NCBI GenBank assembly: GCA_029964075.1 | Contig: CM057135.1 | Coordinates: 6,309,001 to 6,373,000 of the forward strand | Direction: 5' to 3' | DNA from: Patiria pectinifera | Taxonomy: Eukaryota; Echinodermata; Asteroidea; Valvatida; Asterinidae | DNA length: 64,000 nt | Shown: positions 17,101 to 56,935 of the stretch, one piece after another | How positions within the stretch are numbered: position 1 is the first letter of the stretch | How the letters are laid out: each line of letters opens with the position of its first letter | Program-made: the position numbers and the translations under genes | Notes under the pieces: model-generated | What the model saw: the letters and a program-made list of their open reading frames with translations, nothing else | Database searches by the model: none | Told to the model about the DNA's origin: nothing

Positions 17101-18073
17101 GATAAATATATTGATATGTAGGCAGTGGAGGATGACAACCATCCTTGGCCCCTAGAGTTGCTGCAGACTCAGCCCAGGAGAGACACCCCGACGGACATGT
17201 CCCATCTTCAACAGATGGAAGAGTGTTTGACCCAAGATTGCCCACAGGTAATCAGTAAAATAAGTGCTATAATAAAATTTAAACTTCGAATAAAAAAACG
17301 TGAATGATGTGCTGTCCATGCTAATTTGAATACAAATCACAATTTTCTGGGGGATTTTAATCTTGCATTTTCTAAACTAGCAATGCATTTTGCCACTTTA
17401 CGAGAAAAGAGCTACCCCACAAGCTATTCTTCGACTTTTGTTTTGACAAATTTCAATTTTTTGTTGACCAAGAATAATCATTTCTTACTGAGTAGACTAA
17501 ACCTACATCAGAACCAACAATGTACATAACTTGTGCAGACAAGGGACTATTCTAGTTTACTGTGGAAAAATATTAGTCTCTAATAATTAGAGGTCAGTGT
17601 GCAAGTTATTCACAGACGGCTTGCTCAATTAAAGTAATACCACATGCGAGTTTCACAAACAAATGCACATTTTTTACTGTTTCTTTTTTCGTCACATTTA
17701 GCTTGTCGTTGGCACAAAAAAACAGCAAATGATCACTCATGTCGATGACTACTCATCCATGAAGGAGGGCATGATGGTGGCCGTGTTCGTCAAAGATATA
17801 ACAAGAAGACCGCAGATTGGTCGCATTGTCTCCATCGAAGACAAGTGGATTCAAATTCACTGGCACACAGGTCAGTGGAGCGGGCCACAAAAAGCGAGCT
17901 ACACCGGTGCTGGAAAGCATCGGAAACCAGCAACAGAATGGCTCGATGAAAAGACGGCCCTTCTATGGGACTTCAAGCTCACAGAAAAAACAGGAGCTCT
18001 GCCGAAAGCAACACAACAAAGCATCAAAGAGAGGTACGAAGAGATCGACTCGCTCTTGGCGCAAGAAGCATGA
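11136..18073 (+). CDS. DUF7869-like, transposase-type multi-exon gene
   Basis: Eleven coding exons in perfect phase: 11136-11678, 11960-12185, 12415-12536, 13977-14146, 14358-14512, 14914-14997, 15151-15256, 15543-15823, 16668-16829, 17122-17247, 17702-18073 (about 781 aa). Recognisable blocks in order are RTACPIAFCQLQGVSKHKY, IIIDGMDQSKTNLP, MDNCFRENKNRYLLGLGF, FLPVGHTHEDVDQFFSRIAE, and a C-terminal MVAVFVKDITRRPQIGRIVS module with aromatic residues like a small Tudor/chromo-type barrel. DNC...NKNRY and GHTHEDVDQFFS are hallmarks of a common metazoan family, probably with an RNase H-like fold and transposon origin; its biochemical function is unknown to me. The first intron is GC-AG. One break: the frame switches by +1 near an A7 run (11491-11497) inside exon 1. 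The start ATG is the first after the acceptor at 11110. Confidence 0.75.
12996..13024. repeat. (GAT)n microsatellite
   Basis: About nine tandem GAT/TGA trinucleotides in the large third intron of the transposase-type gene. Confidence 0.9.
13379..13408. repeat. (TACATG)n microsatellite
   Basis: About five tandem copies of TACATG in the same intron. TACATGTA is frequent elsewhere in the window. Confidence 0.9.
15981..16142. repeat. Long inverted repeat (foldback MITE) in an intron
   Basis: The left arm begins CAAATATTGAATGCTTCGAG and the right arm ends with GCATTCAATATTTG at 16142; the arms of about 78 nt meet around 16061 at CCGAGGCGAAGCCGAGG. It is almost perfectly self-complementary, so the intron RNA (between exons 15543-15823 and 16668-16829) could form a long hairpin. 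Confidence 0.85.
16143..16624. repeat. Second inverted-repeat element beside the foldback
   Basis: TTATAACACTTCACCCACAG at its left is repeated in inverse orientation, with one or two mismatches, as AATCTGTGGGTGAGGTGTTA at 16599-16618. The centre is non-coding and CpG-rich. It probably forms one composite element with the preceding foldback. Confidence 0.65.
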
Positions 18074-18125
18074 CTCTCTTCCATGAAATATCCAGTATCT
18101 CACCTCTTTTATTACGTACATGATC

Positions 18126-18655
18126 CTTGACTCCAACTTTATTGTAAATAGTCCTAATGGCGGATGGTGGTGGCAGTGTAATATATTTCCGTGATTTCAA
18201 CTTTATTGTAAATAGCCCTAATGGCGGATGGTGGTGGCAGTATAATGTATTTCCGTGATTTCAATTTTATTGTAAATAGCCCTAATGGCGGATGGTGGTG
18301 GCAGTGTAATGTATTTCCGTGATTTCAATTTTATTGTAAATAGCCCTAATGGCGGATGGTGGTGGCAGTGTAATGTATTTCCGTGATTTCAACTTTATTG
18401 TAAATAGCCCTAATGGCGGATGGTGGTGGCAGTGTAATATATTTCCGTGATTTCAACTTTATTGTAAATAGCCCTAATGGCGGATGGTGGTGGCAGTGTA
18501 ATATATTTCCGTGATTTCAATTTTATTGTAAATAGTCCTAATGGCGGATGGTGGTGGCAGTGTAATATATTTCCGTGATTTCAACTTTATTGTAAATAGC
18601 CCTCATGGCGGATGGTGGTGGCAGTGTAACATATTTCCGTGATGGTGGTGGCAGT
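18126..18655. repeat. Minisatellite, 64-bp period, about 8 copies
   Basis: Units containing TTTCCGTGATTTCAAC and GGCGGATGGTGGTGGCAG recur every 64 bp (near 18186, 18250, 18314, 18378, 18442, 18506, 18570, 18634) with few substitutions. The array begins about 50 bp after the stop codon of the transposase-type gene, so it lies in its 3' UTR or just downstream. Confidence 0.92.
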
Positions 18656-18689
18656 GTATTATGTAATATATATCAGTATAGCAAGGTTG

Positions 18690-19265
18690 TTGAAAAAGTT
18701 GAGTGATAAAATTTTCTATCCCTCATCAATACGGTTGTTGAGAAAGTTGAGGACTATCCCTCGGTAATGCAGTTGTCGAGAGGTTGAGGGATACAATTTT
18801 CTATCCCTCAGTAATACGGTTGTTGATAAAGTTGAGGACTATCCCTCGGTAATGCAGTTGTCGAGAGGTTGAGGGATAAAATTTTCTATCCCTCAGTAAT
18901 ACGGTTGTTGATAAAGTTGAGGACTATCCCTCGGTAATGCAGTTGTCGAGAGGTTGAGGGATAAAATTTTCTATCCCTCAGTAATACGGTTGTTGATAAA
19001 GTTGAGGACTATCCCTCGGTAATGCAGTTGTCGAGAGGTTGAGGGATAAAATTTTCTATCCCTCAGTAATATACGGTTGTCGAGAAAGTTGAGGGATAAA
19101 ATTTTCTATCCCTCAGTAATACACGGTTGTCGAGAAAGTTGAGGGATAAGATTTGTTTCCCTCAGTAATACGGTTGTAGAGAAAAATTGAGTGATAAAAT
19201 TTTCTATCCCTCAGTAATACGGATGTCGAGAAAGTTGAGGATAACATTTTCTATCCCTCAATAAA
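18690..19265. repeat. Hairpin-bearing tandem array (85-bp then about 47-bp units)
   Basis: GAGGACTATCCCTCGG recurs near 18749, 18834, 18919 and 19004 (85-bp period), then shorter units of about 47 bp follow. Each unit has a self-complementary block GAGGGATA-AAATTTTC-TATCCCTC, so one strand can form a regular series of hairpins. No coding sequence. Confidence 0.88.
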
Positions 19266-19860
19266 AAAGACTCTGATGTGAGAAATCTACATTTACTTTT
19301 TTATGCAAATACTTGTGTAATCATATAGGACAGATTGTGAGTATTGTAGTTTCGGCTTGAATGAAATAAAGCACAGTTTCCTTGCAAATTGACAACGTTT
19401 TTATACACTTTTGATTGGTGTTCTGTGTAATCGAATTTAATATTCTAAATTGATGCAACCGTTACAAGGAAATTATTTTTTGTCAAAACTTTTCCGAATT
19501 GTATGCTTCATTTTGAATACAAAACCTAACACTGAAGAATCAACAGTCTCTGATCCACGACATTATGCATCTTTTTGTATTTTCTGGTTGCAAGGACTCG
19601 AAATTGCATTTCGATGCAACAAATTCATTGTTTTTCTTCAAGCTTGAGGTGACTTTATCAGATAACTGCAAAAACATGCTATAATCTACAACAATAATCG
19701 ACATCTTTCAAAGAGATGCTTTAATATTTTATTTTTTCAATGAATATTTTATTTTTTAGAAAGTATAGCTTAAAAAAAATAAAAGTTCGTCAAAATGACA
19801 AATATGAGCATAATTTTCCACTTTGAGGTGATTTATGAAAAATGACAGTTAAAAATGAAC
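19266..19860. other. A/T-rich spacer, nothing recognised
   Basis: A/T-rich sequence between the hairpin array and the 22-bp array. It includes AATAAA-like sites (about 19365). No ORF with family features and no element ends were identified. Confidence 0.5.
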
Positions 19861-19871
19861 CTGTTTTGAGT

Positions 19872-19981
19872 AGCTAGTTGAGTAACAATTAATAGCTAGG
19901 TGAGTAACAATTAATAGCTAGGTCAGTAACAATTAATAGCTAGGTGAGTAACAATTAACAGCTAGTTGAGTAGCAACCTAT
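19872..19981. repeat. 22-bp tandem repeat, 5 copies, bordering the virus-like island
   Basis: AGCTAGGTGAGTAACAATTA-type units start at 19872, 19894, 19916, 19938 and 19960. The array sits about 200 bp before the first gene of the virus-like island and could be near the element's left edge; no terminal inverted repeat was recognised. Confidence 0.88.
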
Positions 19982-20181
19982 TTAACAAGCTACACTTGTA
20001 TTACAATTTGTTAATCAACAAACGTCAACAAAATACATTTTGTTGTAAGTAAATGATAGCAATATTTGAGTATTTGCAGTTTTTGGCTATTATCATCATA
20101 TCGCTTAATCTATCGCTTTACACCTACGAATACCTTTGCTTTTGTAACAAAGTTGCAACAGCTACAACAAAATTAAATTCG

Positions 20182-20195
20182 TTTCTAAATAAATG
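20182..20195 (+). promoter_or_regulatory. TAAATAAATG start-proximal promoter motif
   Basis: TTTCTAAATAAATGG overlaps the start codon of the first island gene. The same TAAATAAATG or TAATAAATG string overlaps the starts of the genes at 20656, 21338, 24146 and, on the minus strand, 26473. This looks like a virus-type late promoter or initiator, as in poxviruses (TAAAT at the ATG). Function is inferred from recurrence. Confidence 0.55.
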
Positions 20196-20771
20196 GAGGA
20201 CCTAAAACTGACTTTAACGAACGAACAAGATCACAACGCAGAACATAAAGATCGTTTGTGCGGTGTCACAGCAGCCGGAAACTCTAGAAAGTACTTGGGA
20301 AAGGAATACACCGTTAAACATATCGAAGCTCTTGACAGTAAAGAACTCGAAAAGCTGTATCATCTGTACGAAACTAAATTTGGAAATGAAATTGTTAAAA
20401 CCGTTGGTAAATACACTTTAAGTCTATTTTCGAGAGTGTTAGCTGTTGTTACACCCGTACAAGTTTTAGGATATAACGTCACTATAGATTCTGAAGAAGA
20501 ACTCACCAACGACTTGAGTTCTGATCCTATTATAAGCGCGAGTATGGCTGGTATGTTGAGCGACGTTTGTTACAAGTACGGAACTTTAATATCACCCCTA
20601 GTTGCTACGATTATCACAACAAAACATTTGAAATTTAATAAACCTAATATAATAAATGGAAGATCAGAAAGCAGCGACAGCAACGCCTGCAGCTCAACCA
20701 GCAGAGACAGAGACGCCCCCACCGATAAAAACAACGTCGTCACCGACGGTAACGAGAGTGACCAAGACTAA
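20193..20771 (+). CDS. Virus-like island protein 1, conserved hypothetical, 192 aa
   Basis: Intronless ORF. It has a charged N-terminus, then YTVKHIEALDSKELEKLYHL and a largely helical middle with NDLSSDPIISASMAGMLSDV and CYKYGTLISPLVATIITTKH, ending in a Ser/Asp-rich tail of about 40 residues. I recognise this layout as one that recurs beside penton-like genes in virus-like elements of invertebrates, but I know of no function. The last 116 nt overlap the next gene in another frame, so the Ser/Asp tail could be read-through sequence with little constraint. The start is chosen because ATG overlaps the recurrent TAAATAAATG motif. No signal peptide; one moderately hydrophobic segment at residues 125-150. 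Confidence 0.7.
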   Translation: MEDLKLTLTNEQDHNAEHKDRLCGVTAAGNSRKYLGKEYTVKHIEALDSKELEKLYHLYETKFGNEIVKTVGKYTLSLFSRVLAVVTPVQVLGYNVTIDSEEELTNDLSSDPIISASMAGMLSDVCYKYGTLISPLVATIITTKHLKFNKPNIINGRSESSDSNACSSTSRDRDAPTDKNNVVTDGNESDQD

Positions 20772-21039
20772 AAATCCTAAACGAATACAGTAGGGTAAAG
20801 CTTTAGCTGAGCACAATAGACAGATGAAATTAAAATTGGCAAAAATGAACGTAACATCGGACGAAGCTACGAGCTCACCAGACTACAACTCTTGGGTCAT
20901 GTGGGGGGCTGTAGCGTCTATAATAGGGGTGGGGCTGCTGGTACTAAAAAGTAAGGCAACTGCGCCGGTGATACAGCCAGTGCCGGTAGTCACGCAACCC
21001 ACTTCACCCAGCTCCCCCAAAACGCTAGACATGGAATAA
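20656..21039 (+). CDS. Virus-like island protein 2, single-pass membrane protein, with an internal TAG
   Basis: The frame opens at ATG 20656 inside a TAATAAATGG motif, overlapping the previous gene, and meets TAG at 20791-20793 after 45 codons. The same frame continues open to 21039. The first part is Ala/Thr/Pro-rich and ends KNPKRIQ; the second begins GKALAEHNRQMKLKLAKM, carries one transmembrane helix (VMWGAVASIIGVGLLVL) and a Pro-rich tail. The unbroken charge and composition across the TAG suggest one gene of about 127 aa with a nonsense change (for instance from CAG or AAG) rather than two genes. A downstream start at 20824 would keep the membrane part. Function unknown; probably virion- or membrane-associated by context. 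Confidence 0.62.
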
Positions 21040-21056
21040 ACCAGCAATTTAAAAAT

Positions 21057-21075
21057 TGTTATATTAAAAACGATG
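21057..21075 (+). promoter_or_regulatory. TTATATTAAAAAC promoter-like motif
   Basis: TGTTATATTAAAAACGATGAG immediately precedes the ATG at 21073. Nearly the same string precedes the gene at 25341 (TTTTTATATTAAAAACATGAG), and TTTTTATATTAAAAC lies upstream of the minus-strand gene starting at 24104. This second motif class is distinct from TAAATAAATG. Confidence 0.5.
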
Positions 21076-21315
21076 AGTAACTTTGACACCAACGGAATAG
21101 CAAAAACGATTTATCACGGAGCCGTCATATCGGGTCTTTCGATGGGATACGCCATGGTAGGAGCTAAACTACTCAAAATGAAAGCGCCAGATTTAAGCAA
21201 ACTAAGCGTAGAAGATGCGGCTAAATTGACAGGCATTATAAGTGGAGCTCTGGCCACGCAAAATTGGTTGGTGACCCAGGGTATACTACCGGGCAGTATA
21301 ATGAAAACGGCATAA
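21073..21315 (+). CDS. Virus-like island protein 3, small hydrophobic protein, 80 aa
   Basis: Intronless 80-aa ORF with a helical, weakly hydrophobic N-terminal half (AVISGLSMGYAMVGAKLL) and a second amphipathic or hydrophobic segment (AAKLTGIISGALATQNWLV), ending ILPGSIMKTA. Size and hydrophobicity suggest a small membrane or internal virion component. It is 33 bp after the previous gene and 22 bp before the next, in the same direction, with its own promoter-like motif. No family function is known to me. Confidence 0.65.
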   Translation: MSNFDTNGIAKTIYHGAVISGLSMGYAMVGAKLLKMKAPDLSKLSVEDAAKLTGIISGALATQNWLVTQGILPGSIMKTA

Positions 21316-21337
21316 TTTAAATAGGTTTATTAAATAA

Positions 21338-22597
21338 ATGGCTGAGGGAGGATTTGACTTTGACCCCGTTGATGATTACGATTACGATGACGACGATGAT
21401 GTAGCAGAGACCAATCTGGACGACAACTTTGATACTCCTGCACCACCCATCCTCACTACCGACATAGATGACGTTTTAGATCAAGGAAGAAGCATGCTCA
21501 CTAATGGTCGCGTTGATGAGTTTTACGATACTTATAACATATACAATAAACCAATATCTCCAAGATTCGAAAAATTTATTCTCAAACCAGACGGTTTATT
21601 TTATGACACTGGTAAAGGCTTACTAAGGTTAACGGATCAAAGAAAACCAGACAGATTCTTGACTCTGAGGACTATAGAGTTAAATGTAAGAAAGATGGGT
21701 TTAAACGGTAGAGATTTTATTAGAAAGGAATTAGGCTTTACGCATTACGAACGTAAGACACTCAGTGACGATCAAAGTCAACAACTGCAATCAATACAAC
21801 CCGAGAGTATCCCCATGACAGAACTACCCAGAGTCACCGATGAGGTTATCGAGATTATAGACGATTTAGAACAAGACACTGGCGCTCAAACAGAAGGATT
21901 GAATTACAGAGAACTCCAGGGTTTAGACAAAACTCTTCAGACGTTAAGAGGTAACCTAGAACTTAATTTATCGCGTCTCACAGAACTAGACCGAGAGATT
22001 GCAGCCACGAGACAAGAACTCGACGAATCTCACAGCGAGGAGGGTCGACGAGAGTTAAACGATAAATTGAGCGACTTGAACGTTGAAAGATCTGCCAGAT
22101 TAGAAGCCGCAAAAGCCAACGAACGAGGGCTCAAAAGTCAGATCGCTAGAATCAAAGAAACGATTAATAAAATATTAGGCGACGACACGACTCTGGCGGA
22201 AAAGATCAGAACTCTGTTTAGAGAACAAGGTGTGACCATAGTGAGTATTTTAGCCGCTTTTAGTTTAGCCATCAGCACGATAGTGAGTAGCATCGTCGCT
22301 AGCGTGAGAGGTGCGGGTGCCCCACCCGCGCCATCGCCAACACCTGCACCAACACCAACACCAGCACCAAAAGGCGGTATCAAAGAGTGGATTTCAAAAC
22401 AACTCACTAATTTTGCATCTGCTCTTCAAAAACTCGGAGTGAGCGCGTTGGGTGCTCTGCCGGGTATCATAGGCAGCGTACTCAGTTGGATATTTAACGC
22501 GCTGAGTAAGTCCGTATCGTGGTTGGCCGAACACGTGTGGGCTTTGTTTTTGGGTGTGGGAGCCTTGGTGTTTGCGTACCTGCAAAAACGATGGTAG
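21338..22597 (+). CDS. Virus-like island protein 4, acidic, coiled-coil, proline-linker membrane protein, 419 aa
   Basis: The order of parts is clear from sequence: an acidic N-terminus (DDYDYDDDDDV), a globular stretch with ILKPDGLFYDTGKGLLRLTD and LNVRKMGLNGRDFIRKELGF (residues 80-130), a long heptad-rich coiled coil (about 190-290), a hydrophobic helix VTIVSILAAFSLAISTIVSS (about 298-318), a (PTPA)n linker, an amphipathic segment with ALGALPGIIGSVLSWIFNAL, and a final membrane helix WALFLGVGALVFAYL before QKRW. This suits a membrane-anchored stalk or virion surface/internal membrane protein; that is inference. The start is fixed by TAAATAAATG. The gene is intact and convergent with the minus-strand gene at 22689-24104. 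Confidence 0.72.
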   Translation: MAEGGFDFDPVDDYDYDDDDDVAETNLDDNFDTPAPPILTTDIDDVLDQGRSMLTNGRVDEFYDTYNIYNKPISPRFEKFILKPDGLFYDTGKGLLRLTDQRKPDRFLTLRTIELNVRKMGLNGRDFIRKELGFTHYERKTLSDDQSQQLQSIQPESIPMTELPRVTDEVIEIIDDLEQDTGAQTEGLNYRELQGLDKTLQTLRGNLELNLSRLTELDREIAATRQELDESHSEEGRRELNDKLSDLNVERSARLEAAKANERGLKSQIARIKETINKILGDDTTLAEKIRTLFREQGVTIVSILAAFSLAISTIVSSIVASVRGAGAPPAPSPTPAPTPTPAPKGGIKEWISKQLTNFASALQKLGVSALGALPGIIGSVLSWIFNALSKSVSWLAEHVWALFLGVGALVFAYLQKRW

Positions 22598-22621
22598 TAA
22601 TAGTGGTAATCAAGTTTAAAC

Positions 22622-22668
22622 AAAAAAATAAAAGCCTTACCAGCACAAAGTTGGTAAGGCTTATTTTT
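22622..22668. terminator. Bidirectional hairpin between convergent island genes
   Basis: Inverted repeat AAGCCTTACCA (22632-22642) and TGGTAAGGCTT (22652-22662) around a 9-nt loop, flanked by A/T runs on both sides so that AATAAA (plus) and AAAAATAA (minus) sit at the stem base. It lies in the 91-bp gap between two stop codons. A palindromic 3'-end signal serving both strands resembles hairpin polyadenylation signals of mimivirus and virophage genes. The structure is seen; the function is inferred. Confidence 0.72.
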
Positions 22669-22688
22669 GTGTGTGATTAGAGTGTGAC

Positions 22689-24104
22689 TTATCGCATTGC
22701 CTCGTAAGCTAAAATACCCATGCCAACGATAGCTAATATTCCTACCGTCAACGATAATTTTTCGTCTTGGTGAGTTTGTAGTTTAGTGGGCTCTTGGGTT
22801 AAAACTGTAGGTGTTGGTGCTGGTGTTGGCGCTGGTGTTGGTGGGGGTGTAGGTGCAGGTGTTGGTGATACAACATCGTTCTTCATAGGCTCTGGGGGTG
22901 TTGGTGGCGCGACGTCATCGGTGTCATCAAAAGAGTCGTCCGGTTGAGGTTGTGAGTTTAAATCTGGCACCAAACCAGTGTTCATACTCTGGGTAGCGAT
23001 TTGAAGATTGTTGTTATAGCCGTCGTGCGTTCCAACCCTCAAGTTCATATCCGATGGAATTAAATACAACCCCGGTTTCACGACAAAATTTAAAGGCGTT
23101 CTGGCATACTGCAAAGAGTCTTGAAATTGATCGATACTCGTTTCCATGTCGTCTGCTGCATTGATGATATCTTCAACGATGACGTTAAATTGTCTCTGAG
23201 CGTCTAATCCGGTTCCCGGTGATAATACGCTCGTTTTTGTTTGAGCCTGCGCACCGAGTAAAGCGTACACGTAAGATCTGATCGATTCGTTGATCTTTAT
23301 GATTCCTGCGGGGGTAAACGAACTTGTGTCGGGTATAAAATCTAACCAAGCCTTTTGTACCGATTCATTTTGTTCGATGTAAATAACCGTCCAAGGAACG
23401 TAAAGGCTTCCACTCTTTTTGGGACTGTCTAGACCGTGATAGCCGCCGTAAAGAACGTTGGGTTTGTTGGGTAATGCTTTATCGTATTCACCAACCGCCA
23501 CAAACTTGCCTTTATTAAAGATATATGAGGTACCTAAACCGTTAGAGTTTGTGTCTCTCGTCTGTTTAAAAGACTTGTTTTGATCTATGCCAAACAACAA
23601 GCAGGTATCGGTAAATGCTCTGTGATTATAACTGTTGTCTAGAGTGTTAAATGCGTCATCTCCCGGTAAAGGAGTGGCAAAGTCGTACAGGATCTTTCTA
23701 ACCGTAAAATATAAATGAAAGTTAAAGATGGCCCAAACGTAACGGTTGCTCGCGTTTAAAAGATCGAATCCAATACCGCAGCCCGTAGTAGCGCAGTAGA
23801 TCGCAAAATTTAACTGATTTTGATAAAACGACATGGGGTGTGATTTCCAACGATCTACATCATCGTCCCTCTCAACGTGAGGCAATTTATAGTCCGAGGT
23901 TAAGTCGGGAAACATGGTTAAAAACCCGCTGGTATTTTTAACTATGACCTCAAGTTCACTGGGTTTACTGCTGTTTAAAAACTTTGCTTGGGGTGCAGCT
24001 TGATGTTTTAGCTCGTTTGCCTTGGCTACATTTTGATTTACTTGTCTCGTTACCTGATCGGCTATCGATTGTATCTGCTTTTTTAACGACTTAAAATCAC
24101 TCAT
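22689..24104 (-). CDS. Virus-like island protein 5, conserved 471-aa putative structural protein with C-terminal anchor
   Basis: Intact 471-aa minus-strand ORF. It has an N-terminal amphipathic helix/coiled coil (residues 1-45), a conserved central region with SFYQNQLNFAIYCATTGCGI (about 90-110), NFHLYFTVRKILYDF, and INESIRSYVYALLGAQAQTK (about 270-290), then GLYLIPSDMNLRVGT, an acidic stretch, a (PTPA)n proline linker and a C-terminal membrane helix LTVGILAIVGMGILAYEA. The ALLGAQAQT block is one I associate with an uncharacterised protein of invertebrate virus-like elements. It is mostly helical, so I do not call it a jelly-roll major capsid protein. It shares the linker-plus-anchor design with the convergent 419-aa gene. 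It is transcribed away from the penton-like gene across a 41-bp gap. Confidence 0.72.
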   Translation of the reverse strand: MSDFKSLKKQIQSIADQVTRQVNQNVAKANELKHQAAPQAKFLNSSKPSELEVIVKNTSGFLTMFPDLTSDYKLPHVERDDDVDRWKSHPMSFYQNQLNFAIYCATTGCGIGFDLLNASNRYVWAIFNFHLYFTVRKILYDFATPLPGDDAFNTLDNSYNHRAFTDTCLLFGIDQNKSFKQTRDTNSNGLGTSYIFNKGKFVAVGEYDKALPNKPNVLYGGYHGLDSPKKSGSLYVPWTVIYIEQNESVQKAWLDFIPDTSSFTPAGIIKINESIRSYVYALLGAQAQTKTSVLSPGTGLDAQRQFNVIVEDIINAADDMETSIDQFQDSLQYARTPLNFVVKPGLYLIPSDMNLRVGTHDGYNNNLQIATQSMNTGLVPDLNSQPQPDDSFDDTDDVAPPTPPEPMKNDVVSPTPAPTPPPTPAPTPAPTPTVLTQEPTKLQTHQDEKLSLTVGILAIVGMGILAYEAMR

Positions 24105-24145
24105 TATTTTAGTTTCAGTTTTAATATAAAAAGACTTTTAAATAA
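24105..24145. promoter_or_regulatory. 41-bp divergent promoter
   Basis: The start codons of the minus gene (24104) and plus gene (24146) are 41 bp apart. On the plus side TTTTAAATAAATG abuts the start; on the minus side TTTTTATATTAAAAC lies about 15-30 nt upstream of the start. One short segment therefore holds both recurrent motif classes, each pointing to its own gene. Confidence 0.6.
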
Positions 24146-25314
24146 ATGCATTCGTTTCACTTGTTTCAAAATGAGCAGACGTTTAAATTAGAAGACGTCG
24201 TAGATAATTTAAACGGTCAAAAATCTATACGCGTAAAAAGGGTGTTGTTTAACGCCGGATATTTTAATATTTCCAGCGCCACGGAGATTGATTGGTTTAC
24301 GCAAATAGATGGGAGACCCGCGTTTACCACGGATAAACCTCCCCTCATACCCGCGGAGTTTCTTTCCGATGTACACATAACAACGCCGGATAGAGATTTT
24401 ATAGAGCGATTGTTACCCGATATACCATACCACTATTTATTTAACGATGAAAATGTTTTACAAAAAACTATAAACGATCTTATAAAAGCGTACGAAGACG
24501 ATAGACTAGAATCCGTTTTAGAAGCAAACAAAAGAAAAAGAGCTATTATAGCTGAACGGCGAGGGTTGATTTTAGCCGCCATGAATTCAGAAATAACAAA
24601 AACTGAATTAGAACTTAATACGCTTCAATCTTTAGTAAGAATATTATTTGTTAGAGAAAGAAAAATCTTTGAAGGTGAGGAATTGGCTTTAAAGTTTATT
24701 GAAGGAGAAATGGGTGCGAGCGAGTTGAGCGAGTTGAGAGATAGTAGAGAAGCAGGAGTGATTATAAGAGGAAGTCTTATCGTGACGGGTGATGATTTCG
24801 ATTTTATTCCTCCGAGTCATTTAGAGCCGTTGCCACTCGGAAGTATCGGTTCGGTCATCATACCACCGGGGTGGTACGACGTCGATTGGTTCGATTTCAT
24901 TTTAAATTCTATACCCGGGGTAAGTTTTCGAGTATTTAGAGAATCTAAAAAGGTGACGTTGGTGATAACCGACGTAAATCTCAAATTGCGTTTAAACAGA
25001 GAAGTATCTCGATTACTCAATTTACCCAAAGGAAGACTGGTACCCAAAGTGGTGTACACGGGCTATTACGACGTTAATCCGTTTAAATTTTTGTTTATTC
25101 GCTGCCCGCAATTAAGTACGAGTGAGAATGTCCTTCTGACATCTTGAAAATCGTACCCGTGGGTACGCACAAACCCGAGCCTGATAGAGTCGAGGATTTC
25201 AAAAAACTTAAAAACGGTATAATCGACAAACTGACATTTTCTATCAGCGGTGAAAAAGGACAGGTATTCAACAATAAGGGTGAGGGTATCATTATCGAGT
25301 TGGAGATCTTTTAA
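24146..25314 (+). CDS. Penton-like minor capsid protein, frame broken near its C-terminus
   Basis: The first frame runs 24146-25147 (333 aa). The conserved C-terminal segment continues in another frame from about 25141 to the stop at 25312-25314, with IVPVG and ending LEIF. The total length is one base short of a multiple of three, so a single-base loss near 25137-25141 is the simplest reading. The middle has a coiled-coil segment (about residues 130-180) and a beta-rich part (VIIPPGWYDVDWFDFI; LRLNREVSRLLNLPKG; FLFIRCPQLS). The 'YCDL...LLRIVPV...' style ending and the G.Y/LN repeats are typical of penton-like proteins of Polinton/adintovirus-type elements, which form capsid vertices. The similarity is distant. 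The start is fixed by TAAATAAATG. Confidence 0.6.
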
Positions 25315-25325
25315 TTTTAAAATCT

Positions 25326-25343
25326 TTTTATATTAAAAACATG
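25326..25343 (+). promoter_or_regulatory. TTTTTATATTAAAAAC promoter-like motif
   Basis: This A/T-rich box ends at the base before the ATG at 25341 and shares TTTTTATATTAAAA with the box upstream of the minus-strand gene at 24104. It lies 11 bp after the penton-like stop codon. Confidence 0.5.
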
Positions 25344-25995
25344 AGTGTAGATGGTAAGGCGTTATACCCCGATATTTCTGGAGATGTACTCCAATTACGT
25401 AGTAACGAAGAAACAAAAGTGTTCAGACTTAAAAAGATTGAAGAGATTCGATCTTTAATCTTGAAAGAGAGAGACCACCGTGAGCGCACTTATAAAAAAA
25501 TAAAGAGAATGATCGACACTATTAATTACGTAGAGATAGGATTAGAAGGATTGGGGGCTATAGCGGGGGCTGTCAGTATTCCCGCTCTCTTGGGTGTTAT
25601 ATCAGCCCCCGTTGGATTGGTGCTAGAAGGAACGTTTATGGGCGCTTTTCGTGTAGATATTCTGCTTAGAATCACGTCTAAGCGATTATCCGCCAAGCTG
25701 AAAAAGCACGACCAGATTAAAATATTAGCAGACTCCAAACTTAACACGATTGAAGAATACGTGTCTCAAGCCATCAACGACGGAGATATATCGCACGAAG
25801 AGTTCTTATTGATTACGAGAGAGCTCGCAAAATTTAACGAGCTTAAGCAAAAATTAGAACAAAGACCAGCACAAAGCTTCAAAAATTAAAAACGATAGAG
25901 ACTTTGAAAAGGAAGTTAACAAACGGGTAGACGAACGGCTGGCAAAAGAAAAAAAATCTCTTATCGAAAAACTTACAAGTTCAAATTCTCGGTAA
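25341..25995 (+). CDS. Virus-like island protein 6, helical protein with hydrophobic core, frame broken
   Basis: The first frame gives 182 aa (to 25889). A charged tail continues in a shifted frame to 25995, and the 655-nt total implies one extra base near 25870-25885. Parts: an N-terminal helical region (LKKIEEIRSLILKERDHRER), a hydrophobic hairpin with IGLEGLGAIAGAVSIPALLG and VISAPVGLVLEGTFMGAF (about residues 68-110), then long charged helices (LADSKLNTIEEYVSQAINDG, FLLITRELAKFNELKQKLEQ). The shape suggests a membrane-inserting or scaffold-type protein. No enzyme motif is visible. The continuation after the break keeps the same Lys/Glu-rich helical composition, which supports one gene. 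Confidence 0.6.
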
Positions 25996-26023
25996 ATAAA
26001 CATTATGAAAGCGATCCGCCGAG

Positions 26024-26473
26024 TTACACCTCTATTTCACCTCTTAGGGCTACACCCTCGGCCCCGCCTTTATTGTAGTGGTCATCGTATCTTTTTAGTG
26101 CTTTATTAAATTGATTTTGAGTCACTTTAAATAAATCTTTAACTCGTTCTTTGTTCCATCCAACGACGTGATGATAACACGCCGCTATTAACGACCGTTT
26201 TACGCATCCGTTTCCCCTCAATGTTTTGTAATTAACGAGCTCGTTATATTTATTGATTGTTTCTTGGACATCTTCTGAGTCTTGCTCTGGACAAACAGAA
26301 AATATAAGTTTCTCCACAGTTTTTCTTTTGTTTCGATCTTCTTGCGCATTTTCTGCCGAAAAATCAAAGTAACGTGAAACTATTTCACCGCACGTTTTAC
26401 AAACTAAAAAAACATTCTCGATGATTATATGATGATCGCACTAATCTGTTTTATTAGATAGCTCGAGGTTCAT
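26024..26473 (-). CDS. TFIIB-like transcription factor (zinc ribbon plus cyclin-like repeat), with nonsense codon 11
   Basis: Reading from ATG 26473, which sits in a TTAATAAATG motif, codon 11 is TAG (26443-26441). The same frame then stays open to 26024. Just after the TAG come C12, H15, C25 and C28-G29 (VCKTCGEIVSRYFD), the spacing and sequence of a TFIIB-type zinc ribbon. About residues 90-130 read CVKRSLIAACYHHVV then VKDLFKVTQNQFNKALKRY, matching the cyclin-like repeat of TFIIB (R..L.AAC...A ... I...F......FNKALK). Such factors direct RNA polymerase to viral promoters in large DNA viruses; here it would be the natural reader of the island's shared promoter motifs. A start after the TAG (first ATG at 26317) would lose the ribbon. 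Homology is by motif only. Confidence 0.58.
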
Positions 26474-26485
26474 TTATTAAAAATG
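26471..26485 (-). promoter_or_regulatory. TAATAAATG motif of the TFIIB-like gene
   Basis: On the minus strand TTTTTAATAAATGAACC overlaps the ATG at 26473-26471, matching the motif at the plus-strand island genes. Confidence 0.5.
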
Positions 26486-26519
26486 ATTTATTTGTTTTAA
26501 TAAAGTTTTTAAAATAGAC

Positions 26520-27925
26520 AGAGGGAGATGCCTAGACAGAGGGAGATATGGGGTTTGTCGCCGTACCCCCCACTTATAATATAACAACTCGGAGAGAGAA
26601 GAGATATATTTGGGGAGCTAGAGGGAAGATATATTTGGGGAGCTAGACAGATATATTTGGGGAGGGATCTATTTGGGGGCGGGGATCATTGGAAAGGGAT
26701 GGGTACAATGGGAGGGGGGCAGAGACGGGGAGGGGGTAAAGTCTGGTACCCTGGCTTCTCCCCATTGGCCCTGTACTACCCCCAGACCTATGGCAAAGTC
26801 TGGAATCCCCCACTAATACCTACTACAGTCGCCATGATTTTTTTCGCGAAACTTTGCTAGTTTGCTCTATGAAAAAAAAAAAGCCGTTGTCGTGTTTTTT
26901 AGTAAATGTTCGAAATTTGAGAATGCGCGGAGGTGCGAGTGTCAAGATGTATCGAAGTGCAGTACGTGCATGTCATAACTAAAAAAGAATAATGTCACGA
27001 ATTTTCATTTTTCTCGAATCACCTAATTGCCAAAACTAACGCATGAATAGGCGAAATAAAAATAAACGTTACCGTCCCGCTTTTTTGAAAAAGAAGGAAG
27101 CGTGGGTGCACTTTTTAACCTCAAAATGGCCGCCCAACGGTCTATTTTTCAAGACGGCCGTCAGGTTTTTTTTATGGCCGCAATTTCACACGGGAAAATG
27201 ATATACCAGCTTTATACCGGCTAGGATGCAACAGATAAGCCAAAATGATGTCACTGTTGAAATGTATTATTTATTTCCGGTAAAAAAAAGGGAGGCGTAC
27301 TCCACAAAAGCCAGGAAGCGGGCGGGCCGGACGCTAAACATTATTTTTTGTCCTTTATGATTTAGCCTTATGTTATATATATATACATGTACTTTTGTTT
27401 ATTACTGAAAAACTACCCTTGGAATACATGCAACAAATAATAATAATTGGGGATGCCGAAGTGTTTGGTGGTCAATTCATGTACACCCAGTGTATTTGTT
27501 CTAACGAAAACATTTTTTTTCCTCTCTGAATTGGAAGAAACCATGGAGGAAAATGTTACATGCATGTACAAATAACGAAAGTCCATTTATGCATTTGAGC
27601 TAGGTTACATTTTCCAATCCGGCAACCATTCATTGTCGTGAAGTGAAATAAACAATGCCCATCCACAGAGGTAATTACATTATCGGCGGTATGGACTGAC
27701 CATCTGTATGGCCCCCTAGGGGTCCTTGCTCTATAGTTTATTCTTGGCAAGTATGTTTTAGCAGGATGGATACCCAAAGACACATAACACAAACCAAACG
27801 TGGTCAAGACTGCAAGCGCGATTCATTGAACCTTGGAGCTATAAGATTGAACACGGCATGCAACAGTGAAGAACAGTGAAGAAAGAAATCCTTTTCTTTT
27901 TTTGGAATTTCTCTTTTGATGCAAA
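26520..27925. other. Right flank of the island: purine-rich short repeats, otherwise nothing recognised
   Basis: 26517-26690 holds imperfect repeats of GACAGAGGGAGAT and GATATATTTGGGGAGCTAGA. Beyond that the sequence is non-coding, with G-rich runs, poly-A and poly-T tracts and a TATATATATACATGTA stretch at about 27377. No terminal inverted repeat of the island could be identified here. Confidence 0.5.
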
Positions 27926-30378
27926 ATGTCAAGTTTATCGGACTCCGACAACCAACCTGTCTCTGATGTCCCCGGACAACAGGTATAATGTAGATTTTTC
28001 AATTTAGCGTAGAGTTGCATCCAACTTAGGCATAGCACGTAGGAAGGAAAAGATTAGAACAAACCATTTTACGTTTCCATGCGTAGTCGTGCAAGGAAGG
28101 CCACGGGAAACTTCCAATCATTGACACATCTATTTGTATTTGAAACAATGTGAAGGTGTAGTGGCAAATGGGATTTGCGGCTGACTACTACATGTATAAG
28201 TGCCTGGGTGCCTAGTACGTGCGGGCTAACTTGGGTGGACATTTTTTTTATGATCATGAATAGGCCTAGCTAGCTAGCTATGGATAGTTGATAATTTTGA
28301 CGGCCACATTTCCAACTTTACAATGCAATTGAAAATATAAATGTCTATATATTCGTTTACCCCACTTGCCTCGTAGATGGAACGCAAACACTTTATACTT
28401 GTACACATTCTTATTAGTCCATGTTACAAGCGCCACCGGGAATACACCATACATGGACATTTTTTTTCTTATCTAAACCATTACATTTGTAAATGGGTCA
28501 ATTGATTGTATGTACATGTACCTGTACATCTACCGAGTTTTATTTAGGGTATACATTTGTAAATCATTCCTTATGTACAAGTATATTATTAGCAGCCTGA
28601 AGGTACTCCACCAAGAAGGGGAAGGGGAAGGGGCCGCAGAGGACGGGGCAGAACATCTGCAGGCAACAGAGGAGGAAGAGCAAGAGACAGGGAAACGGGA
28701 AGTCGAGGTGTAAGAACTAGAGGAGCTCGGGGGAGAGTCAGACGATGTGGCAGGGGAGCCGCTCTTCAACCTGCTGGGCAAGGCTAACAAGTGGTTGATT
28801 TACCGGATCAACGACGACAAAGGTTGAGGGTATGCAAACCTTATAAATTGTGTAAAATATTATACAAAGGTTCTCACAAAATTTGAATTGGATCTATACT
28901 CCGCCAATGTAGGCATACATTTATTCATTAGTATCGTACAAAAAAAGTGAAAGACAAAGATGTAGCTCCGAGGGCTACATAAAAAAACCTCACTTGTTAT
29001 TTTTCAGAAAACAAACGAAGCCAGCCAGCAATAAATATATTCAGCAATAAACCCATTACAAATTACTCACAAATCCGACTATAAACCAATATCGAATGGA
29101 ACATTTAGTATCTTAGGGACCGTGACCATTCAGCCCCGATATGAAAAGGGCCCCCGGTAAGCTCGTCCCCTCCCAAGTAGTCCTTTCGTACCGTCCCAGT
29201 TACCGGACCAGGAGCTGGTCCGGTTGCTAATCAGGAACTCCTTAATCCTGGGGTCTATTGTTTGCAAGTATTGACACATGTAATATATCCCAGAAGAAAC
29301 CTGCTTGTGGTTTTTATCTCTCAGCGCGAAACAATAGAACACTTTCGCCCGCACAGATCAAAACCCCTGCCATGCGGTTTCGTGCACAATGGGACCGTAA
29401 ATTAAAAAAGGCGTTTGGAAGGATTTTATCTTTAATCCGGTAAGTCTGCTATTGTTCTGCTCTGGATGTTCTCTGAAGGGCAATAAATTGAGGCGCCTGA
29501 CTGACTTCAAAACTTCTGGTCAGACAGGACCATGTACCGGACGAGACTGGGCTGAAGACCGGACTGGCTCTGGACCGGACGAGGTACTGGGGGGGCCCTG
29601 TTCATACCAGGGCTGAATGGTCATGCTCCCTTACAAGACTATTTTTCTGGCCTGTTTTAAAAAAAATCTCTCTTTTTCTGTCGGTAATGGCAAGGATGAC
29701 ATTGGACGCCTTAACCTGGAAGAGGCACGGGACCTCCTGTTCCAGGCAGCAGAACGCAATCCAGGAATGCTGCTGGACATCTTGATGGTGCATCCACCCC
29801 CGCCGCCTGTACCTGACCAGCCACTGGAGTGGTGCACCTGCACTCACTGCAGGCAAATGCCAACTGATGAGGAATGCGTCTGCTGTGGCATGTCTGCTGA
29901 AAATTGCATCACTAGGCACCCTGTAAGCACTGCTCATACCCATTATGATTAATGTCTCATTCATCATGGAGAAGTAAACAGGCAAAATTTGCAGGCCATT
30001 GACTGTTTTATATAACATGTTCCCATTATTTTGACTAGCCATATGTCTCTGATGCGAAGACTCATTAATAATCTTGTTCTTTATTTTTGCTTTTGATTTC
30101 AGATGATGGGCCAAATATTGGACCCGATGTCAATTGCGCTGCAAAGGGCCGTTTGGAGGGAAGTGCTAAACCCGGAGCAGCAAGCCAACCAGCAGCCAGG
30201 GAGGGAAAATAGAAGTAGCCGGCACACAGCATACCGGTGCTACATCCTGTGGCAATATAATCGCCTGGGGGCTGGTGAGAGGCGTGTCATTCCCAGCTGT
30301 GTGGTGCTTCGCATCAGAGCGGCGTACCCAGACCCCCACGGCCAGTACACTGGATTAAGAAGGAATCGTCTAGCCTGA
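27926..30378 (+). CDS. P2X7 C-terminal-domain-like protein, 4 exons, intact
   Basis: Coding exons 27926-27982, 28596-28709, 29695-29922 and 30103-30378 join in phase 0 throughout and encode 224 aa without a break. Exon 1 encodes MSSLSDSDNQPVSDVPGQQ; exon 2 is RG/RGR-rich (RGRGRGRRGRGRTSAGNRGG); exon 3 has a helical LNLEEARDLLFQAAERNP followed by the cysteine cluster EWCTCTHCRQMPTDEECVCC; exon 4 ends with AYRCYILWQYNRLGAGERRV and IPSCVVLRIRAAYPDPHGQY. The WC.C..C..MPT..ECVCC and IPSC...IR..(Y/F)PDP.G.YTG blocks are the hallmark of the intracellular C-terminal domain of P2X7 receptors, here without any channel domain. Stand-alone versions are common in non-mammalian animals, of unknown role. 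The RG-rich part suggests nucleic-acid binding. Confidence 0.8.
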
Positions 30379-30418: not shown

Positions 30419-30773
30419 GGCCCAAAAAAAAGTCTCCGGTTTCTGGTATGGAGCTTGCCCAAAAAGTGGTGCGGCGACGCGGCTTTTCTTTTTTTTTTTG
30501 CTTCAAATGTCGGCTGATGACTGCAAATGGTACCCGACTAAACTTAGTGCAAATATATGGGAGTCCAGAGAGGCCACATAAAGCTTATTCTTGATCATAA
30601 CCCCATCTAAAAACACGTTAAAATTGTGCTGCAGCAGGATTCCAGTCAAACCAGAGAGTTTGGTGGTTTTGAGACGTCATCTTTTATTGAAATATTTTTT
30701 TTTTCATTTTGCCGACGCGCATTGCTACAGCGACCCACGCGCTTACCAGAAACCGGAGATTTTTTGGGGGCCT
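30419..30773. repeat. MITE with CTCCGGTTTCTGGTA terminal inverted repeats, copy A
   Basis: It begins GGCCCAAAAAAAAGTCTCCGG...TTCTGGTA and ends TACCAGAAACCGGAGATTTT. A second copy is at 36,609-36,980, so the internal sequence (AACTTAGTGCAAATATATGG, GGAGTCCAGAGAGGCCACAT) is that of a repeat family. It lies 40 bp after the stop codon of the P2X7-like gene. Confidence 0.8.
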
Positions 30774-34600: not shown

Positions 34601-37600
34601 TCAGTTTAGGATCTTTTTGTCTATGTTTGAAATGACTAAGTCTTGCCCTTCATATTCTCATATAAATAATACTCCTACACCTTTTATCTTTATAGGCATT
34701 ACGTTGCGTAGACAGAAAAGACGTATTAACGCAAACGTGAACTTACCTTTGCAAGCTTTTTACCAAGATTCTTGGCCCCATGCCAAACATCATATGAATG
34801 CTTGATGTCCTTGTTATCATCTCCTTGGGAACAAAAAAAAACCATTGTAATAAAACTTGTAAATAAAGAGCAGCACATGGGTAACCTACGTACCAACTGT
34901 ACCTATGTTATGTCATACACTGAATATGGATTCACCCTATACATGTACAAAACAAACCTGAACAGAAATCTTTAGTTAATGTTATTGACCTCCTCCTACT
35001 GGTTTCTTCAAAATGATAGCGTGTCAGAGAAGGAACAATCGCATAGAAAGATTTGTGTTATTCCCACCGTGAAACCAAGGACAAATTATAATGTGGTATA
35101 ATGTGCTCGGTTTCTTTTGAATAGCTGCAATTGTTCCTGTGTACCTAATGAGACAAATAAAATGCCTAATTCAATCAATATCTTTCTAACATACAGATAT
35201 TTGCATTTCAAAACAAAAATCTTCTATAATACAATCTGAAGTAAACAAAATCAACAAAAATTGAATATTTACGCATTCTGGCAGCTATGGTTACATGAGC
35301 ATCAGTTACGAGCTCGGTGACTTTGATGCCACTTCGCTGTAACTCATGCAGGCCTTTCTGAAGTGCTTTGGGCTCCATGTTGACGCTTATGTTTTTGCTT
35401 GCACGCTTGTCCATAAACTCAACATGGGTGATATCCTTGGAGATGTTGTTCATGAAGGTGTACGTGAGATACTGGGCACAGTGCCCAGGACTATCATTTC
35501 GACCATCACCTATATATGGATGTAAAAAAAATCATCATGTGTCAACTGCGTGCAGAGTTAAGGGGAATATACAACATTTGCAAACATTAAAAAACAAAAC
35601 TACCAAGTTTTTACGAAATACCTTACTAGGATGTTGGTAACTGACAGTCTAAAGCATCCTGTAAAACCATGGCACCTGGTGTGAAGTCATTTACAAGAAA
35701 ATTGTATTTTTGTATAAATTTTCAACAGTGGTCGGCCCACCACCGTTAAAAAAAACCAAACTATTTTTGAACTACTGCTCTAACTTCACCATTTTTTCAG
35801 TCCATATTTTGTTTGCTATTGGTTACACGTTCATGATTGGGTGCAGGCTAGCTAGACTGGTTCCCTTACCTTACAAATTTCCGGCATCTATAAATTGATC
35901 CATTTTATCTTCATTGGAGTCAAAAAACCAGACTACTGCACCATTTTTGTTTTTCTTGGTTTTTTCAGCATTTCGGAACACATAAGTGGAACAATTTTTG
36001 ATCTATCAAAGTAACCCCTCAAATAGTTCATTTCTGAAAATTACAGCAAAAACCAATGATGTTTATTCCCTTTACGTGGGCTACCACAATTTGAAATGAG
36101 TGATTACTGGAATGGTATTTTAGATTATGTTGCCTTCCACTCGCTTACTCACTAAGGACAAGAACTCCCTCAGCAGCGCACTTTTCTTTGGTAGCCTGAA
36201 ACGTTGCTTCGGCTGTTTCCTCTATAACAGGAAAAATGAACTTATCCTGGTATGCCTGAAAAGTGTAAGATGGATCATGTTCAAATTCATAAATTTGAAC
36301 ATGAGTGCCACCTTGCTGTAGTTGTTCCCAGACAGTAGCAGTGCAGACCCCAGGTTCAGGTCCCCAATGTGACACCGATGTAGTGTCTCCTGACAGCAAA
36401 AGCTGCTACTGTGGCCTTGAGAGCACTTCTGAAATATACCAAGCAGGAAGGATTTTTTAGCAAGAATGTTTGGCACTCATTATGAAGAATGTCCTTGTAA
36501 AAAAAAAAGACTCAATTAAACCATACAATGGATTCCTACAAATGATGTTGGACTAAGAATGGATGAAATCCCCAATGGGTCTGACTGTGTTTACCCACGT
36601 GTAAATAAGGCCCCCCAAAAAATATCTCCGGTTTCTGGTATGGAGCTTGCCCAAAAAGTGTTGCGACGATGCGGCTTTTCTTTTTTTTAACCTGTTTTTT
36701 TTTTTGCTTCAAATGTCGGCTGATGAATGCAAATGGGGCCGACTAAACTTAGTGCAAATATATGGGAGTCCAGAGAGGCCACATAAAGCTTATTTTTCGA
36801 TCATAACCCCATCTAAAAACACGTTAAAATTGTGCAGCAACAGGATTCCAGTCAAACCAGTGAGTTTGGCGGTTTTGAGACATCATCTTGTATTGAAAAA
36901 AAACCTTTTTCATTTTGCCGACGCGCATGGCTACGGCGACGCGCGCGCATACCAGAAACCGGAGACTTTTTTTTTTGGCCTAAAACATAATTTTTTTGAC
37001 CAATGTAATGTCCAATATTGTGAGTGCACTTCAATTACAGGATTTTGTATTTGGAACAACGAGAACTGTAAATAACTAAATATGACTTGGGGAGCAGGGA
37101 AGTTCATCCAATCTTTAACAAGTCTGAGTGTAATTCTGCTATAAAAGAAAAGAAAACACCAACCCATGTAATGTGGGCCGATGTCTCTGAGTGGTGGATG
37201 GTGATGACAGTTGGCAGTTGGCAGGACTGACAGTGAGATCTAGCCTCAACTGCCAAGTCCTTTAGTCTTGTCTCGGTAATGATATATAGGGGTGTCTCCT
37301 CTGCCCCCTTTGGAGTGTTTAGGACTTATGGAGGCCACTCCTTGTAAATGATGGCTCGTCATCATCAGTGCCCTGGATAGGATGAGCCGTCACACGACTA
37401 TGCATTTCTTCCCCCGTGGAAACATATTCCAGGCCGACTGGATTAACTCTAAAACAAAGTAAAAAAATAATGTGGCATTGTCATGAATGAAAATTGATAA
37501 ATACTGCTAGTAGTAGTGATCTTCAAATGTAAACTCTCAAACATCATCTCTCCTATAGTTTATAAAAGGGTCATGCCATCAACGCATTTAAACTTGTGTA

Positions 37601-55610: not shown

Positions 55611-55619
55611 AAGAATACG

Positions 55620-56935
55620 ATAGCGAAACAGAAGTACAATTTATCGCTAAAAAATCAGAAAAGTATATTTCGTTTTCCATATGAAATCTATGCTTTTTAG
55701 ACTCGTTTAGTTTTATGACATCGTCGTTGGATAAATTAGTGAAAACCTGTCAAAAAGAGTCGTTTAATCTACTCGGAGAGCATTTTAAAAATCAAAACGC
55801 TGACTCTTTATTACAAAAAGGAATTTATCCTGACGAATAATGAATTCGTTTGATTAATTCCAAGAGACCAGCCTACCACCCATCGACAAGTTTTACAGTA
55901 GTCTAAAAGACGAAAATATATCGCAACAGGACTACGACAAAACTCGACGAGTGTGGAACGAGTTTAATATACAAAATCTAAGAGAATATCACGACTTGTA
56001 CGTGACTACCGACACGTTATTACTCGCTGGCGTTTTTGAAAACTTTAGAAGAACGTGCAAAGAAACTACGGGTTAGATCCACCAAACTATTACACAGCAC
56101 CCGGCTTGTCGTTAGATGCTTTGTTGAAACACTCGGAAGCTAAACTCAAATTGTTGCAAGACGTCGACAAACATTTATTTTTTTGAAAAAGCAAAACGAG
56201 GAGGAATATTTAGCGTGGGCGGAATGAGACATCACAAAGCCAATAATCAAGATCTCGATGACTACGATTCAAACAAGCCGTCGAGTTATATCCCTTATCT
56301 GGATGCCAACAATCTGTGCGGATTGCCTATGAGTCAATATCTACCGTACAGAGATTTTAAATGGACAGCCTCGAAACTGTTCACCGAAGGAAGAATATTA
56401 ACGCTTAGGAAAACGTCGAACATCGGTTATTTTTCGAAGTAGATTTAGAATACCGCACGATCTACACGCCAAGCATAACGATTATCCCCTAGCACCCGAA
56501 AATATCGTCATACCCCAAGCTTGGATGTCTAATTATCAAAATGATTTATTGACTACCGAACCTAGTAGCGACGTACACCAATTAACATGTACGCTTAATC
56601 CAAAACAAAAATAAGTTTTGCACTATGTTACGTTGCAGTTGTATTTGAATCTCGGTTTGAAACTAGAAAAGGTACATCGCGTGTTAAAATTTAAGCAAGC
56701 ACCTTGGATGAAATCTTACATTGATAAAAACACGCAACTCCGAACAAAAGCGACCTCTGATTTTGAGAAAGACTTTTTTAAATTGATGAACAACAGCGTG
56801 TTTGGCAAAACGATGGAAAACGTTAGAAATCGAATAGACGGCTACCTACTGAGAGACAATAACGAGAGCGATCCAGCAAAATACAAAAAAAAATTGGAAT
56901 TTGTATATATGTATAAGTCATGCTGAACATAACTA
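55620..56935 (+). pseudogene. Relic of a protein-primed family B DNA polymerase (Polinton/adintovirus type)
   Basis: Several frames, broken by frameshifts and stops, carry consecutive polymerase blocks: SLPPIDKFYSSLKDENIS, NLREYHDLYVTTDTLLLAGV, NYYTAPGLSLDALLKHSE, then motif A region YLDANNLCGLPMSQYLPY (Asp), DFEKDFFKLMNNSVFGKTME for motif B. Motif C (YxDTDS) and the exonuclease domain are missing, so both ends are gone. Protein-primed polymerases of this type replicate Polintons, adintoviruses and related linear elements. Base composition resembles the capsid-gene island at 20-26 kb, about 30 kb away; common origin is possible but not shown. A MITE follows at 57,053. Confidence 0.82.

Follow-up and report, generated by a model that had tools for sequence, protein, structure and literature searches.

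A truncated Polinton/Maverick-type provirus in the sea star Patiria pectinifera and the exchangeable gene segments of its multi-copy family

The Mavericks, or Polintons, of vertebrates are linear elements with terminal repeats that start with AG(T), short target duplications, an integrase, a packaging ATPase, a major capsid gene and purifying selection on the capsid genes (Barreat and Katzourakis 2021, PMC8097293). They also carry an adenovirus-like protease and have 6-bp target duplications, and their copy number is mostly low, with a median of eight per genome and at most 38 intact copies. In this article we describe a virus-like gene island in the sea star Patiria pectinifera that belongs to a family resembling these elements in the former features, with a likely major capsid gene, and differing from them in its 5-bp duplications, the lack of a recognised protease, the 292 genomic places found for a single gene of the element and a capsid model that is nearest to those of large DNA viruses. 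The island lies in a stretch of 64,000 nucleotides, referred to as the window (positions 6,309,001-6,373,000 of contig CM057135.1, here C7, assembly GCA_029964075.1), and the genome searched amounts to 613.5 Mb.

Several other described systems bear comparison with this one. Adintoviruses, which are defined by hexons mutually recognisable by BLASTp according to PMC11071296, share the rve integrase and the adenovirus/Polinton-type gene plan. The nearest description that we found is that of the "meldvirus" Meld23486 (Buck et al. 2024 preprint, PMC11071296), to which our family is likened by description only; the sections consulted describe neither host-genome amplification nor allele exchange. 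Endogenous mavirus-type virophages of Cafeteria are likewise integrated virus genomes with regions that are hypervariable between relatives, but, as far as the available text of PMC10945749 goes, the variable regions there comprise a primase/helicase gene, small accessory open reading frames (ORFs) and a FNIP-repeat gene rather than a penton gene, and the host is a protist. Arguments on the nature of animal Polintons, as transposons or as viruses able to leave the cell, have drawn on their capsid genes and the purifying selection acting on these; in cyprinid Mavericks pw is the sole gene favouring a host-switch model, and exchangeable penton alleles are not described for vertebrate Mavericks in the part of the account at hand (PMC8097293).

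We consider it very probable that an integrated Polinton/Maverick-type element left the island as its broken right half, and that the family of this element likely spread as a particle-forming virus. The window copy is a fossil: it is Polinton-type and incomplete, and its class is less known. An initial annotation, made from the sequence alone, had named two alternatives, a Polinton/adintovirus-type module that is partial and an element class that is less known; both descriptions hold, and the parts missing from the window are present in full-length copies in the same genome. The features of the island, in window coordinates with lengths in amino acids (aa), are as follows.

19866..26824, plus strand: left-truncated Polinton/Maverick-type provirus, delimited by BLAST against ten copies from the same genome; the right end is a terminal inverted repeat (TIR)
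19866..19980, plus: 22-bp tandem repeats at the truncation point, which in copy c1 directly follow the packaging ATPase gene
20193..20771, plus: 192-aa gene, open; 98% identical to the reference copy and stop-free; function unassigned
20656..21036, plus: 127-aa gene containing a hydrophobic stretch; a stop breaks it and leaves the 71-aa ORF as its 3' part
21073..21315, plus: 80-aa gene, open
21338..22597, plus: 419-aa gene, open (424 aa in copy c1); coiled-coil-like, with a hydrophobic C-terminus
about 21338-21817, plus: exchangeable segment 1, the N-terminal ~160 residues of the 419-aa gene
22689..24104, minus: 471-aa gene, open
24146..25314, plus: penton-like gene (393 aa in copy c20), frameshift near the 3' end
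about 24323-24865, plus: exchangeable segment 2, residues ~60-240 of the penton-like gene
25341..25992, plus: 218-aa gene, frameshifted, with a 182-aa ORF left
26024..26473, minus: TFIIB-like frame interrupted by an in-frame stop; 158 aa long in copy c20
26567..26824, minus: right TIR, ending ...CTACT on the plus strand; matches copy c19's left TIR on the reverse strand at 96.5% identity

The eight ORFs are located where the initial annotation placed them, on both strands and without introns (192, 71, 80 and 419 aa on the plus strand, 471 aa on the minus strand, 333 and 182 aa on the plus strand and the TFIIB-like frame on the minus strand), and they are real in that they recur in many copies. 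As a count of eight genes the statement needs amendment: the 192-, 80-, 419- and 471-aa genes are open, whereas the other four (127-aa, penton-like, 218-aa and TFIIB-like) are broken relative to other copies, i.e., decayed remainders of longer frames. In the penton-like gene the 333-aa ORF ends by the frameshift and the last ~60 codons continue in another frame to 25314. The reported gaps of 10-90 bp do not cover two larger ones between the listed ORFs (193 and 134 bp), which are partly frame lost by decay, and the reported extent, 20193..26473, is narrower than the element, which reaches from 19866 to the end of the terminal repeat at 26824. A Pfam scan of the ORFs gave no support for the labels "penton-like" and "TFIIB-like", which we assume on the strength of sequence patterns.

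The 471-aa protein has 90 scored matches in the genome (part of 2,265 first-look candidates were scored), 94-100% identical with E printed as 0, and 78 of them are without an internal stop; for the 333-aa ORF, 121 matches were scored out of 957 candidates, 92 of them free of internal stops. The window is included in both counts, and the ORFs are not due to chance. A 26-base word taken from the 471-aa gene, and shared by 11 of 11 compared copies, occurs at 292 genomic places with at most one mismatch, and its reversed control at none. For detailed comparison ten other copies, two halves each, were taken from the top of the ranking by similarity of the 471-aa protein. Homology to the window copy begins at 19866-19871 in nine of the ten and at 19915 in one, and it stops at 26446-26829, while leftward of the island all ten have far more sequence in common. 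This left part in copy c1 consists of long polymerase-like ORFs, an integrase gene on the opposite strand and genes for 140-aa, 422-aa and 201-aa (ATPase) proteins, followed by the 22-bp tandem repeats and then by the genes seen in the window.

A 261-bp query across the left junction at 19865/19866 gave 111 matches (40 of 207 candidates scored), among which only the window itself spans the junction. In the flank, the sequence up to 19865 belongs to a repeat, and two other copies of it among those matches end at the same base next to different sequences. Consequently, the element is truncated on its left side: its left half was lost at the point where this repeat now ends, and no empty site is demonstrable. 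The pentamer ACAGT at 19845-19849 was considered as a target duplication and rejected, because the bases up to 19865 belong to this repeat. The integrase, capsid and ATPase genes are absent from the rest of the 64-kb window too. It could be argued that the island represents a shorter non-autonomous element class that was amplified as such, given that it is compact and has a terminal repeat at its right end; the lack of another match across the left junction among the candidates scored and the presence of the left half in 10 of 10 other copies make this very improbable. The flank itself (17996-19865) contains 64-bp and 85-bp tandem arrays, and its right part is the repeat that ends at 19865 in three genomic places.

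Searching the genome for full-length copies with terminal inverted repeats, which the initial annotation proposed as a check, recovered them together with the integrase, the packaging ATPase and the likely capsid gene. Three copies were traced to both ends (16,382, 16,624 and 17,353 bp); all three have inverted terminal repeats of about 157-258 bp that start with AGTAG, in agreement with the right end in the window, and all three are flanked by a 5-bp target duplication. Ten right ends were seen including that of the window, that of copy c8 not being found, and three types of terminal repeat occur on one coding core. A tandem array of the 83-bp type with about 1-2 kb of extra sequence precedes the right end in five of the ten copies (c1, c12, c20, c7a, c7c), with 13 units in L026.

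These data also bear on the reading that the ORFs are host genes or domesticated virus genes, to which we assign a negligible probability. Four genes are open in the window copy and the 471-aa protein has 5 of its 38 homologues on contigs >100 kb, as that reading would have it; against it, the family is dispersed and multi-copy with target duplications, the four neighbouring genes are broken and 25 of the 38 homologues are on contigs <10 kb. The ORFs are not spliced host exons and their homologues are not confined to host genes, and the host-exon reading is rejected.

Among the proteins of the full-length element, the integrase matches PF00665 (rve, retrovirus-type; E 6.9e-11) and retroviral integrases in PDB (best E 1.6e-6), and the 201-aa protein matches the packaging ATPase family PF04665 Pox_A32 (E 8.1e-10). 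The 422-aa product is likely, judging from a predicted structure, a double jelly-roll major capsid protein. The model is that of the folded homologue P0048, standing in for the element's own protein, and is nearer to large-DNA-virus capsids than to the adenovirus hexon; one Adintovirus entry in BFVD matches it by structure at 12% identity. Further capsid homologues (P0059-P0151; 46-50% identity) mostly form single-member clusters and occur on contigs up to 8 Mb, which suggests a large amplification of a related element in at least one other sequenced eukaryotic genome. The long ORFs we take to be a family B polymerase (PolB) by the motifs YLDANNLYG, NNSVFG and YTDTDS, so that their DNA polymerase identity is putative; they contain an endonuclease VII-like insert (PHROGs E 6.3e-5; Pfam E 3.2e-4, below the Pfam cut-off). 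The 471-aa protein represents a conserved family and is modelled as a helical domain with a confident core and a C-terminal helix, while a structure search, which the initial annotation had also suggested, returned no fold match for it.

The ratio of nonsynonymous to synonymous divergence (dN/dS), pooled over all copy pairs, is 0.14 for the ATPase, 0.19 for both the integrase and the capsid gene, and 0.27 for the polymerase, compared to 0.38-0.52 for the 140-, 192-, 127- and 80-aa genes, 0.54 for the 419/424-aa gene and 0.55 for the penton-like gene; the values for the 218-aa (0.74) and TFIIB-like (0.38) genes are not reliable, given that copies with frameshifts were aligned to the reference. 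Selection thus holds the capsid and ATPase genes as tightly as it does the integrase, in keeping with a spread through particles. The family would replicate as linear DNA, presumably package it in particles, and re-integrate. Alternatively, the element could be an intracellular self-synthesising DNA transposon only, with the capsid genes kept via copying of master elements and divergent segments arising by gene conversion with old relics. The hundreds of copies in one genome are in line with this, and so are a polymerase relic at 55612-56895 and the diverged PolB of copy c8, which indicate that older lineages are present and mixing. We nevertheless judge it unlikely, in view of the low dN/dS of capsid and ATPase and of the distribution of divergence along the element, where conversion would be expected to act more evenly.

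Six genes were profiled in blocks of 20 residues; most blocks show 90-100% identity to the reference copies, the frameshift-hit blocks of the 218-aa gene being the exception. Between classes of copies, the 419/424-aa protein drops to 15-60% identity in residues 1-160 and to 45% in residues 221-240, and the penton-like protein to 16-80% in residues 61-240; in single copy pairs identity falls and returns sharply inside the two genes. Synonymous sites between classes are saturated in amino acids 41-160 of the 419/424-aa gene and synonymous divergence (dS) reaches 1.20 in amino acids 121-200 of the penton-like gene. For the 471-aa gene, which is located between the two, dS in 14 copies is 0.061 between 419-aa classes vs 0.052 within class I; for the penton classes it is 0.059 when P1 is compared with the others vs 0.053 within P1. 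The steepest breaks are therefore inside two genes with a gene at about 0.06 between them, contrary to the more even pattern expected of conversion, and saturated or nearly saturated segments beside near-uniform genes indicate recombination between long-separated alleles rather than recent drift.

Typing covered 21 places, 18 of them for both genes, and distinguished 419-aa classes I and II and penton classes P1, P2 and P3. All six combinations occur among the 18 copies (10, 1, 1, 1, 2 and 3), which are a non-random sample and include an I/P3 copy, c14b, that aligns poorly past the penton segment. The penton classes are similar in their likeness to two metagenome homologues (P0167: P1 36%, others 30-33%). 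A further explanation is that the segments are simply unconstrained, change-tolerant parts of the proteins with no role in host recognition, as the dN/dS of both genes above that of the core genes might suggest, as well as the split of 419-aa class I, whose three subclasses share only 65-83% identity in the segment. We regard this as somewhat unlikely, since synonymous sites that between classes approach or exceed saturation, next to genes at about 0.06, point to exchange of old alleles, segment identity within 419-aa class II and within the penton classes is 88-100% (except c11, counted as P1 at 79% to P1), and nine of ten allele representatives are stop-free in the matched stretch (4/5 for the 419-aa and 5/5 for the penton-like gene).

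The two segments may instead face outward and bind the host cell or encounter its defences, in which case selection would keep them diverse and recombination among genomes replicating together would shuffle them. Adenoviruses likewise recombine host-contact proteins. We tentatively propose, as a possibility that falls a little short of even, a germline-resident animal DNA virus with "serotypes", whose integrated copies record an infectious virus repeatedly recombining its host-contact proteins, and which combines a capsid of the large-DNA-virus type with a new helical virion protein family.

Several observations weigh against the viral interpretation or its parts. Capsid_N has no match in the element's own 422-aa protein (E<=1) or in P0048 (E<=0.1), and the putative PolB ORFs have no polymerase match in Pfam or PHROGs. 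An adenain-type protease was not matched among the ORFs scanned with Pfam, where a diverged one could hide in other ORFs, and the 393-aa penton-like protein, a candidate capsid-vertex protein by its sequence, has no Pfam match and two homologues among the matches listed. The allele classes of the two genes are partly linked (Fisher p = 0.013). Finally, the PolB of copy c8 is only 78% identical over most of its length (pooled PolB dS 0.21), so exchange with diverged lineages reaches other genes too. The general plan, ends, integrase, ATPase and predicted capsid fold correspond to a Polinton/Maverick-like way of working; membership as judged by polymerase profile, protease, penton fold and duplication length is less settled.

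The copies are unevenly distributed in the genome. Of the first 100 listed of the 292 word places, 65 are at 0.86-19.65 Mb of C7, compared to 9.5 of 292 expected in 20 Mb; C7 also holds 50 of the 121 scored penton matches and 13 of the 90 scored matches of the 471-aa protein. The first ~20-24 Mb of C7, with the window at 6.3 Mb, could be a low-recombination or sex-linked region. Elsewhere in the window, the polymerase fragment at 55612-56895 (plus strand) is an older second remnant, 80-90% identical to the family and 89.6% to copy c8, with none of the 11 other reference genes searched beside it (the 471-aa gene was outside that set). A ~350-bp repeat with short inverted ends is present in two copies 6.2 kb apart (30421-30765 and 36613-36971), and a host-type ORF at 29617-29952 (plus strand) encodes a P2X7-receptor C-terminal domain (PF20478, E 1.6e-6).

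The conserved 471-aa family carries no annotation, although its core is predicted with confidence, and a host with 292 places for one element gene would suit a search for particles. If virion-type proteins do occur as exchangeable, anciently diverged alleles while the background is uniform, this would provide another kind of evidence, open to direct test, that selection acts outside the genome.

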